Part shown: piece by piece, positions 57,087-60,459 of the stretch
Position numbering within the stretch: position 1 is the first letter of the stretch
Layout of the letters: the number at the start of each line of letters is the position of its first letter
NCBI RefSeq assembly: GCF_023913515.1
Contig: NZ_CP099391.1
Span: 1,674,001 to 1,738,000 of the forward strand
Origin: Natronococcus sp. CG52
GTDB lineage: Archaea > Halobacteriota > Halobacteria > Halobacteriales > Natrialbaceae
Reading direction: 5' to 3'
DNA length: 64,000 nucleotides
The notes under the pieces: model-generated
Seen by the model: only the letters and a program-made list of their open reading frames with translations
Databases searched by the model: none
What the model was told of the DNA's origin: nothing
Program-made: the position numbers and the translations under genes

Positions 57087-57713
57087 TCAGCGGCCCGTAT
57101 CGTACTTGTAGGTCGCGGTATCGGAATCGATCCCGAAGTCCTCGGCCGTCTCGGTAGTCGGCTCTTCCTCGGGACTCTTCGAGGCCTGCTTGAACGCTTC
57201 CCGGAGTCGCTCGGGCATCTGGAACCGGTCGATCTCGATCTCGAGCGGCACCGCGTCCGGATCGGTCCGGTCGCGCTTCTCCGAGAGTCGCCCCTGAAGC
57301 GGTTCCGGAAGCTGTTCCGTCTCGATCCGGCGGAAGCCGAACTGAGCGAGGTAGGCGCTCTGGCCGGTTAGCGAGTAGACGGTATCGAACCCCTCGTCGC
57401 CGGCGTACTCGAGGAGTCGCTCGATGACGTGTGCGCCGACACCCTGACCACGCCAGCTCTCGAGAACGCCGATACTGGTCAACTCGCAGACCTCGGCCGG
57501 TCCCTCGTCACCGGCGGGACTGCCGTTTGCGTCGGTCGGTTCGCCGTCGACCTTGTGGACGCGGATGCGCCCGAAACCCGCCTTCTCGCCGGTGACTTCG
57601 TCGATCGCGACGACGTAGTCACGCGAGCGGAACGCCGTGTCGTCGAGCCCCATCGACTCGATGTAGTCGAGCAGCCAGACCTCCTCCCTGTTTTTCGCGT
57701 CCCGCACGTACAT
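57087..57713 (-). CDS. GNAT-family N-acetyltransferase
   Basis: The 208-residue protein has the GNAT core at about residues 1-145: MYVRDAKNREEVWLLDYIES, YVVAIDEVTGEKAGFGRIRV, ELTSIGVLESWRGQGVGAHV with the acetyl-CoA loop RGQGVG, and YSLTGQSAYLAQFGFRRIE. An extra C-terminal region of about 60 residues is acidic and disordered. An acidic insert at about 65-80 is halophile-like. Start ATG 57713 is preferred over a codon nine residues upstream. Substrate unknown. Confidence 0.85.
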   Translation of the reverse strand: MYVRDAKNREEVWLLDYIESMGLDDTAFRSRDYVVAIDEVTGEKAGFGRIRVHKVDGEPTDANGSPAGDEGPAEVCELTSIGVLESWRGQGVGAHVIERLLEYAGDEGFDTVYSLTGQSAYLAQFGFRRIETEQLPEPLQGRLSEKRDRTDPDAVPLEIEIDRFQMPERLREAFKQASKSPEEEPTTETAEDFGIDSDTATYKYDTGR

Positions 57714-58247
57714 GAGTGGATCTAGGCCATCTGCCACCAAAAGCGTTTGTGGGGCCCCAGAACCCCACCCGTGGCGTAGCGTGGTCTGTAGTCGGTAATG
57801 TGGCGTTCATTTTGACTGTATTTGAGTCGTCTCCGGTGTACGTACGGCGTACAGGACGGGCGGTAAACCCGGATTTCGGCGATGGCGTCCTCCGGACCCG
57901 AGGCAGTGAGTTGCGTGAAAGCCGACAAATAGATCGATTTCGGTGGCGGTACGGTTCCTTTCGGGATCCCGAGAATCGGCTGTCCGATGTCGAACACGAG
58001 CGTGAGGCGAGATCGGCGGCCGCGATATCACTATTGTAACCGACAACGCATCCGATCAGTATCGAGTCCGCAATTAGCTGCGCATTTTGTTCTCTCGATT
58101 CGGTCGCGTCGCCGGTAATACGAGATATTCTAGATGTGGGGACAGCGGTAGTTGTCGTCTGAGTTAATTAATAGTTGAAACGCTCTCGACCGTTCATAAT
58201 GGCATTCGCAATACGGCCGGAGTGGGCGAGACCCGCCCAGAGACCAT
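57714..58247. other. Unassigned 534-bp stretch with hairpins
   Basis: GTGGGG (57749-57754) and CCCCAC (57763-57768) form a hairpin next to the GNAT start. A 91-codon minus frame at 57722-57997 contains protein-like words (PILGIPKGTVPPPKSIY, YSQNERHITDYRPRYA) but no recognisable domain or start signal. I read it as a repeated or degenerate element rather than a gene. TGGGCG/CGCCCA at about 58219-58235 forms another hairpin just before the lysine-rich gene. Confidence 0.35.
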
Positions 58248-58637
58248 ATGACAGACGAACCATCGCGTAGCACTCGCCGCAGCGTGCTTCTGACCACGGG
58301 TGGAATCACCGTCAGTGCGGTCGGGCTTACTGGAGGGGCTGCTGCCTCCCGCAAGGACGGGAAAAAGAAAGACGGCACAAAGAACAACGGGAAGAGGAAG
58401 AAAGACGAACCGAAGAAAAAGAAGGACAAGAAGGGCGATAAGAGGAAGAAGGGCAAGAAACGCGATAAGAAGAAGCCGAAGAAAAAGGACGAGAAACGCG
58501 GTAAGCGGAAGAAGGACAAACACGGCCGGAAAAAGGAGGAAGACGGAACCGTCGTCGAAGCCGGGGATACTCGAATCGTGACCGGGAGCAGCGGAAGCCG
58601 CGTCGAGGCGGGCGACGTCGTCATCGACACGAGATAG
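58248..58637 (+). CDS. Tat-exported lysine-rich protein
   Basis: The 129-residue protein begins with a twin-arginine signal (STRRSVLLTTGGITVSAVG, residues 8-26) and a cleavage-like AAAS near 31-34. Residues 35-97 hold about 39 Lys/Arg against 13 Asp/Glu, in runs such as EPKKKKDKKGDKRKKGKKRD. The last 30 residues are short beta-like repeats with VEAGD twice. Haloarchaeal proteins are normally strongly acidic, so this is extreme. An exported polycation could bind acidic glycans, S-layer, DNA or silicate. The frame choice rests on the in-frame signal. No family is recognised. Confidence 0.72.
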   Translation: MTDEPSRSTRRSVLLTTGGITVSAVGLTGGAAASRKDGKKKDGTKNNGKRKKDEPKKKKDKKGDKRKKGKKRDKKKPKKKDEKRGKRKKDKHGRKKEEDGTVVEAGDTRIVTGSSGSRVEAGDVVIDTR

Positions 58638-58794
58638 TGATCGACGGCCGATTCCAGCTTCATCCGCACCGTGACTCTCCGAATTGCAGTCGGGTCACGC
58701 GCTCTCCCACGCCGACCGCGAAGCAGCGATCGCGGCGGCGAATCCGCTTCTCGCGCAACCCACAGCTAAGGTCTCTCGTCCGTAACGTCTGTGC

Positions 58795-60459
58795 ATGCTT
58801 CACGCGACAGGCCCACTACTCACCGTCGACGTCGGTGAGCGTACCACCTCGGAAACGGCTATCGACGACCTGCTCGAGAGCTACGTCGGCGGTCGAGCGG
58901 CGGCGACCGCCCTCGCCCACGAACGCATCCCGTTCGACGCCGACCCCTTCGGTCCGGAGAATCGCGCGTACCTCTCGACCGGTCCGCTTCAGCAGTCTCA
59001 GATGTCCTTTACGGGACGAATGAACATGACCGGACTCTCGCCGCTCACCGACGGCCTGGTCTCGACTAACGCGGGCGGCTACCTCTCGCGGAACTTCGTC
59101 TCGACGGGAATCAGCGTCCTCGAGATCGCGGGCGAGAGCGACGAGCCGCTCGCCGTCCACGTCACGGATCAGGGCGTCGAGTTCGAGGAAGTACCGGAGC
59201 TCGAGGGTGCGACCGTCCCCGAAACCTCCGAGTACGTGGCGGACAGTCGCGACCTCGGCGCCGAGCACTGCATCGCGATCGGTCCCGCGGGCGAGAACCT
59301 GGTCCGGTTCGCGTCGGTGATGACATTCGACTCGCGCGCGTTCGGTCGCGGGGGCCTCGGTGCGGTTCTGGGAGCGAAGAACGTGAAGTGCGTCACCTTC
59401 GAGGGTGACGTCGAACCGCCGCTCGAGATCCCGAACCCGCCGGAGATGGACGTCCACCGGGAGGCCGCCCAGTCCGACGATCGGATGCGACGGCAGGGGA
59501 CGACCGGCGGCACGGAGTTCATCAACGAGAACTTCTCGCTTCCCACCAGGTACTTCGAGGAGTACGAGTTCGAACACGCCGCCGACATCGGCGGCGACGC
59601 CGTCGAGGAGAAGAAGTACAAGAAAGGCGCGTGTTCGGCCTGCGCGTACGCCTGCAAACTGCCGACCAGAGACGAGGAGAGCGGCGTCGAGACCGAGGGA
59701 CCTGAGTTCGAGACCGTCTACTCGTTCGGCTCGTGCCAGGGCGTCGGCGACATCGTGGACGTTATGAAGGCGAACGAGCTCTGCGACACGCTCGGGATGG
59801 ACACCATCTCGGCCGGCGTCACCGTCGCGGCCTATCTCGCCAGCGAGGACGAGTTCGGCAACGCGGAACTCGCCCGGGAGGTCACCGAGCAGATCGCCCG
59901 CCGCGAGGGTATCGGCGACTCGCTCGCCGAAGGCGTCGACCGGGTCCACGACGAACTCGGCGTCGACAACTACACCGTCAAGGGGATGGAGTTCGCCGCG
60001 CACGACGGTCGAGTCCTCCACGGACAGGGCCTCTCCTACGCCGTCGCGAACCGCGGCGCGGATCACATGTACGCCGGAATGCTGACCCTCGAGTACAGCG
60101 GCGAGCTCGATCCCGAGGGGACGCTCGGGAAGGCCGAAACGCTCGTCGCGGAGGAGAACGCGGCCGCGTTCCGAGATACGGGCGTCGTCTGCGCCTTCGG
60201 AGGCGACTACGTCACCGACGATCGCCTCGAGACCCTGTTCGACGCCGACTACGAGGAGCTCATGGACGTCGGTGCGGAGACCGTCCGCCTCGAGCGCCAC
60301 TTCAATAACCAGCGCGGGTTCGGCCGGGACGCGGACGACCTGCCGTACGAGATCCCCGACCTCGAGGACGCGATCGAGGAGTACTACGCGGCTCGAGGCT
60401 GGTCAGAGGGGACCGTTCCGGACGGGACGGTCGAACCGAACGCACCGTCCGCCGACTGA
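58795..60459 (+). CDS. Aldehyde ferredoxin oxidoreductase family protein
   Basis: The 554-residue enzyme matches tungsten AOR-type proteins: LSTGPLQQSQMSFTGRMNMT, MTFDSRAFGRGGLGAVLGAK and KNVKCVTFEG in the pterin-binding first domain. The 4Fe-4S ligands lie in KGACSACAYACKLP (Cys-x2-Cys-x3-Cys, about residues 280-287), with a likely fourth Cys in DTGVVCAFGG. It would oxidise an aldehyde to an acid with ferredoxin as acceptor; the substrate is unknown. It is slightly shorter than the usual 600 residues. It stands alone on the plus strand. Confidence 0.9.
   Translation: MLHATGPLLTVDVGERTTSETAIDDLLESYVGGRAAATALAHERIPFDADPFGPENRAYLSTGPLQQSQMSFTGRMNMTGLSPLTDGLVSTNAGGYLSRNFVSTGISVLEIAGESDEPLAVHVTDQGVEFEEVPELEGATVPETSEYVADSRDLGAEHCIAIGPAGENLVRFASVMTFDSRAFGRGGLGAVLGAKNVKCVTFEGDVEPPLEIPNPPEMDVHREAAQSDDRMRRQGTTGGTEFINENFSLPTRYFEEYEFEHAADIGGDAVEEKKYKKGACSACAYACKLPTRDEESGVETEGPEFETVYSFGSCQGVGDIVDVMKANELCDTLGMDTISAGVTVAAYLASEDEFGNAELAREVTEQIARREGIGDSLAEGVDRVHDELGVDNYTVKGMEFAAHDGRVLHGQGLSYAVANRGADHMYAGMLTLEYSGELDPEGTLGKAETLVAEENAAAFRDTGVVCAFGGDYVTDDRLETLFDADYEELMDVGAETVRLERHFNNQRGFGRDADDLPYEIPDLEDAIEEYYAARGWSEGTVPDGTVEPNAPSAD

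Follow-up and report, generated by a model that had tools for sequence, protein, structure and literature searches.

Haloarchaeal Tat substrates generally carry an S/T-R-R-x-hydrophobic core and an AxA-type end, and are mostly acidic proteins of ordinary composition. The acidity of haloarchaeal proteins reflects selection from molar salt, so that a Lys-rich exported family is an exception that tests the acidity rule. The question posed by such a family is whether the rule binds folded soluble proteins or all proteins. The gene described here lies in the window, the 64,000-nucleotide stretch of Natronococcus sp. CG52 DNA that was analyzed. Its product shares the signal core and AxA-type end of other Tat substrates, but differs from them in being a Lys-rich chain almost without hydrophobic residues. 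The features of the locus are:

57087 to 57740, minus strand: left neighbour, GNAT acetyltransferase (flank, outside the finding)
57895 to 58650, strand not applicable: segment of about 0.76 kb with the promoter and the ORF, missing in the two closest relatives (borders approximate, by eye from the alignment)
58179 to 58198, plus strand: promoter dyad AACG-CTCTCGAC-CGTT, then CATA (TATA-like), 49-69 nt 5' of the ATG
58223 to 58239, plus strand: leader hairpin TGGGCG-AGACC-CGCCCA, ending 8 nt 5' of the ATG, at about -25
58248 to 58637, plus strand: whole ORF, 129 aa, ATG to TAG, comprising Tat signal, Lys/Arg body and C-terminal beta motif
58248 to 58349, plus strand: twin-arginine signal, residues 1-34 (TRRSVLL ... 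GGAAAS), from sequence; alignable in 8 of 8 family members, dN far below dS between Natrialba species
58350 to 58538, plus strand: Lys/Arg-rich body, residues 35-97, predicted disordered, with no V, I, L, M, F, W, Y or C
58413 to 58475, plus strand: degenerate tandem repeat within the body, 27-bp unit, 2.3 copies, 83% match, sub-period 9
58539 to 58634, plus strand: C-terminal motif, residues 98-129, two VEAGD half-repeats, four short beta strands predicted (pLDDT about 80)
58795 to 60459, plus strand: right neighbour, aldehyde ferredoxin oxidoreductase (AOR) (flank, outside the finding)

The Tat signal of the protein consists of T-R-R-S-V-L-L, the hydrophobic region VLLTTGGITVSAVGL and the AxA-type end GGAAA|S. 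It was recognized by this sequence pattern and by an eight-member alignment, and the protein is inferred from it to be Tat-exported. The protein has no Cys and hence no lipobox Cys, so it was not classed as a lipoprotein. The 63 residues of the body include 32 K, 7 R, 8 D and 3 E. The original prediction had counted 39 Lys/Arg between residues 35 and 97, which is correct; its 13 Asp/Glu are two too many for that interval (11 were counted) and fit residues 35-100 instead. The two VEAGD repeats that it placed after the Lys/Arg stretch are present in the sequence, at residues 103-107 and 119-123. The tail, residues 98-129, is acidic with a pI of 4.1, while the full-length protein has a pI of 10.4. 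AlphaFold2, supplied with the family alignment, modelled the body as coil and residues 100-127 as four short strands with pLDDT of about 80. Pfam and NCBIfam scans of this protein and of all family members gave no match over the curated cut-offs, only low-complexity noise. Moreover, PDB sequence and fold searches with its C-terminal motif returned no significant relative.

The composition of the protein was compared across 1,050 ORFs that a simple rule based on third-position GC had called in 1.26 Mb of this genome (a 1.2 Mb sample plus the window). The sample had a median pI of 4.44 and a median Lys content of 1.4%, with the 99th percentile at 7.4%. The protein ranked first of the 1,050 both in Lys fraction (24.8%) and in net charge per residue, which bears out the claim of a polycation with a Tat signal in an acidic proteome. 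It also ranked first for K+R in any 63-residue stretch, with 39 against 21 for the runner-up. A ranking by pI had been proposed as a check; the protein is indeed strongly basic, but by pI alone it stands only about tenth because Lys-poor proteins have higher values. A loose Tat-like pattern was present in 82 other ORFs of the sampled 1.26 Mb. When mature Tat/Lys-rich proteins of the Natrialbaceae (n = 27, family included) were compared with these, K/(K+R) was 0.68 (genome sample 0.20, other Tat-like proteins 0.19), and V, I, L, M, F, W, Y and C made up 6.5% of the residues, compared with 29% in the other Tat-like proteins. Net positive charge was found in 25 of the 27, a figure biased upward because the search profile favors Lys-rich bodies.

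An ORF of this kind could arise by chance in a purine-rich low-complexity tract. Its low complexity over most of its length and its absence from the two closest relatives are what such an origin would predict. However, the Lys stretch has a third-position GC of 0.78 when read in the ORF frame and only 0.40 and 0.26 in the remaining two forward frames, in agreement with the original prediction, which had argued against a misread frame. Homologues were sought with a three-member profile in 125 Natrialbaceae genomes and then with an eight-member profile in the whole order. Proteins of the same layout were found in seven other Natrialbaceae genomes (G024, G029, G072, G074, G104, G105 and G108), including Natrialba aegyptia (G104), N. 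asiatica (G105) and N. taiwanensis (G108). The occurrence of the same signal and Lys-rich body in relatives, on which the prediction had been staked beforehand, was thus observed in seven genomes. A profile built from the C-terminal columns only and run against 293 genomes of the order recovered the window protein (E = 2.4e-13), six others and nothing else; since all seven were in the profile, this result speaks for specificity and not for new members. Pairwise matches of the window C-terminus scored above all 2,000 shuffles for five of the seven members and were bettered by 7 and 21 of the 2,000 for the other two. Between G104 and G108, dN and dS were 0.014 and 0.197 in the signal (dN/dS about 0.07) and 0.044 and 0.285 in the C-terminus (dN/dS about 0.15). 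The N. asiatica C-terminus is strongly diverged from those of its congeners (dN 0.41-0.44). Purifying selection acts on the signal between Natrialba species, and on the C-terminus for the closest pair. The ORF is a real gene, given the homologues of like layout in seven other genomes and the purifying selection between Natrialba species. A chance origin is hardly credible in the face of cross-genus homologues under selection, the third-position GC of the frame, and a promoter dyad and hairpin of its own.

The window protein and its seven homologues constitute a family, termed class A, defined by signal, charged body and C-terminal beta motif. The signal and the C-terminus can be aligned; the body cannot. 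The C-terminal motif spans about 28 residues, h-V-h-E/Q-x-G/S-N/D ... G ... T/A-S/G, and the window protein conforms to it both in the alignment and by profile. The bodies are 66-136 residues long and contain 0-6 V, I, L, M, F, W, Y or C residues per member. Their net charge per residue is +0.39 in the window protein and +0.32, +0.30, +0.21, +0.18, +0.10, +0.06 and -0.23 in the others. The last value belongs to the G029 member, whose body is acidic (mature pI 4.1), and the body of the G072 member is near neutral, yet both have kept the signal and the C-terminal motif. Positive charge, which the original prediction emphasized, is thus not supported as the conserved property. Because body charge ranges so widely, polycationicity itself is not conserved in class A; what is conserved is the signal and the C-terminal beta motif. 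The body of the G072 member contains a repeated KKKERVEPAAEP-like unit, and class A bodies grow out of short tandem repeats, with the charged body changing quickly.

The same searches yielded more Natrialbaceae Tat/Lys-rich proteins, all hypothetical, which fall into three other groups according to how they end: with a (P)DPVT-D/E-T..F tail, with a QIQQ-VDE tail or with no tail. They resemble class A in signal type and in their repetitive Lys-rich bodies, and most have a similar promoter element and hairpin. However, their C-termini are unrelated to the class A motif.

Several other Lys-rich proteins were encountered. Two genomes of one genus (L048, L049) encode proteins of about 540 aa with a terminal poly-Lys/Gly tail (KKGKKDKKGKK...) in an acidic proteome. 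A haloarchaeon of another family encodes a Tat-signal protein (L105:1833, minus strand) in which a Cys/His segment (CHCPPGREGSNC...) precedes a poly-Lys tail. A Tat-signal protein of about 385 aa (L099 / L006, G049) combines YF.GF..GYY repeats with long tracts of Lys, Asp and His. A Gly/Asn/Lys-rich member with the same signal (G098:C3:21237, L065) matches by position the Haloterrigena sp. KLK7 plasmid NZ_CP149789.1; the gene there is annotated only as a hypothetical protein, and the identity rests on the position match.

The DNA upstream of these genes provides an independent test because the Tat/Lys-rich set was gathered from protein sequence alone. A common plan was found: a dyad, (T)AACG-N8-(C/G)GTT(A), runs into a TATA-like TTAATA or TTCATA and is followed by a short hairpin some 7-10 nt upstream of the ATG. 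The dyad of the window gene, at 58179-58198, reads AACGCTCTCGACCGTTCATA. AACG-N8-CGTT was present upstream of 9 of 28 Tat/Lys-rich members and of 1 of 1,050 control genes, the single control being ORF 58248-58637 itself. The longer form of the dyad occurs once in the window, where 0.01 occurrences are expected. Moreover, a PWM trained on the other classes placed six of the eight held-out class A members within about the top 1% of controls, at -64 to -76, with the window gene at 1.1%. The strict form TAACGN8SGTTAATR gave 19 matches in 125 genomes, against 3 for the reversed control, and 10 of the 19 were located about 49-51 nt upstream of Tat/Lys-rich ORFs. A looser form matched three times in the window genome (1 for the reversed control), one of these being at ORF 58248-58637 with a spacing of 50 nt. 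A dimeric regulator probably binds at the dyad, and its site would overlap the TATA box. The idea that the dyad marks a wide regulon was discarded, as strict sites away from the Tat/Lys-rich genes were few and had other spacings. In four genomes (L190, L191, L192, L198), TAACGG...GTTAATA lies 107-137 nt 5' of one shared gene, by eye an M42-type aminopeptidase. This may be a separate conserved element, or the same regulator may have been put to use a second time.

Haloarchaeal mRNAs are for the most part regarded as leaderless. Hairpins scoring at least 14.5 at the right place were found in 19 of 28 Tat/Lys-rich members and in 68 of 1,050 controls. The stems vary through compensating changes, with 17 distinct 5' arms among 22 members. 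One stem position is C-G in nine, T-A in nine and T-G in two, and an adjacent position is G-C in ten, A-T in three, C-G in three and G-T in one; these counts are not independent because the members are related. The hairpin is missing in three Natrialba members and is therefore not essential everywhere. Initiation from the TATA-like box, if this is in use, would place the transcription start near the beginning of the hairpin. The hairpin, probably located at the 5' end of the transcript, probably sets mRNA stability or translation. A short structured leader that a defined set of genes has kept through compensating changes is directly testable with a reporter strain. The shared dyad and hairpin, which the original prediction does not mention, are more telling about the gene than its charge is.

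The surroundings of the family genes were also compared. The closest AOR genes are those of G001 and G008; in both genomes the GNAT gene adjoins AOR and the segment of about 0.76 kb is absent, so that it was either gained in the window lineage or lost in those two. Similarity of the inserted DNA to other genomes was discounted as chance or purine-tract matches, and matches of 86-89% to the VEAGD coding stretch proved to be located in unrelated proteins. The family gene of G024 and G072 is flanked by an acyl-CoA dehydrogenase gene on one side and a tatA-like gene (PF02416 in L119) on the other. In G029 it follows the same acyl-CoA dehydrogenase gene, with extra genes before tatA. The loci of these tatA-linked members are L119:7843-9002, L121:7498-9037 and L120:7901-15361. 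The Natrialba genes have different neighbours, and across the neighbourhoods no partner gene common to all family groups was seen. A poly-gamma-glutamate-associated factor was also considered and set aside; the window genome had no TIGR04012 (PgsB/CapB) match, and only sub-cutoff matches occurred in some Natrialba genomes and in G072.

It is tentatively proposed, at a little under an even chance, that the protein is an exported disordered polyelectrolyte with a beta motif, whose charged body binds counter-charged surface polymers. The ORF would form a unit by itself, with a promoter of its own and a short structured leader. After Tat export the chain would lie stretched out at or near the cell surface, where the C-terminal beta motif may dock or oligomerize it. 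The charged body could then bind acidic S-layer glycoprotein, exopolysaccharide or extracellular DNA and so glue or coat the surface or matrix. The roles that the original prediction had suggested as possible were crosslinking of glycans or S-layer, DNA binding and templating of mineral. In the Natronococcus species it would act as a polycation, most likely binding the anionic cell surface. Because relatives vary the charge of the body, the role would depend on an extended, highly charged state and not on one fixed charge, and the acidic G029 body argues against a specific anion-binding role across the family. Furthermore, long-range electrostatics are screened in molar salt, so that polycation binding would be weak unless short-range contacts contribute.

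The variation in charge is also the main argument for regarding the body as a passive spacer that presents a working C-terminal beta motif away from the membrane, its charge being a by-product of the expansion of purine-rich AAG/GAC repeats. Charge (+0.39 to -0.23) and length (66 to 136) drift while the signal and the C-terminal motif persist, and the body DNA has a tandem-repeat structure. However, a net positive charge is seen in 25 of 27 mature Tat/Lys-rich proteins, with more Lys than Arg, opposite to the genome, even if the profile favors Lys-rich bodies, and many members of the wider set lack the class A motif and are almost entirely body. A spacer is judged rather unlikely. A hydrophilin-like secreted protectant against drying or dilution of the envelope, with little need for a specific partner, would account for the near absence of hydrophobic residues, the high charge of either sign and the predicted disorder. 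It is improbable, since the C-terminal motif is conserved in a specific way that points to a partner and the patchy distribution of class A (8 of 125 Natrialbaceae genomes) would be odd for a general protectant. Even less probable is a halocin-like polycation directed against competitors. The protein is small, cationic, fast-evolving and patchy, carries a Tat signal, and is encoded in the window genome but not in its two closest relatives, all of which would suit such a weapon. However, a linked immunity-type gene is not conserved across the groups, an acidic family member exists and molar salt would weaken a cationic attack.

The exported polyelectrolyte can also be placed in a wider proposal, which is possible but doubtful. 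The Natrialbaceae would have a system of secreted, fast-changing polyelectrolytes in which a conserved head (dyad, leader and Tat signal) is joined to variable bodies and C-terminal modules, and the window gene would be a very Lys-rich form used as a coat or glue in molar salt.

Haloarchaeal Lys-rich Tat proteins, disordered Tat substrates and leader hairpins of this kind were not described in the titles and abstracts searched, a body of literature with few subscription journals and thus weak evidence of novelty. The class A family is apparently undescribed, and the conserved head, in which promoter, leader hairpin and signal come together, is apparently unreported. Halocins and cationic antimicrobial peptides are likewise small, secreted and cationic, some with Tat signals, but the family differs from them in that it lacks a conserved immunity partner and a Cys-rich or helical core, and its charge is not conserved. 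Hydrophilins and LEA-like proteins share its high hydrophilicity and predicted disorder; in contrast to them, the family has a conserved C-terminal beta motif, a Tat signal, a dedicated promoter and leader, and no Pfam or NCBIfam match. Tat-exported low-complexity proteins are a kind already known, and the window protein is one of them.
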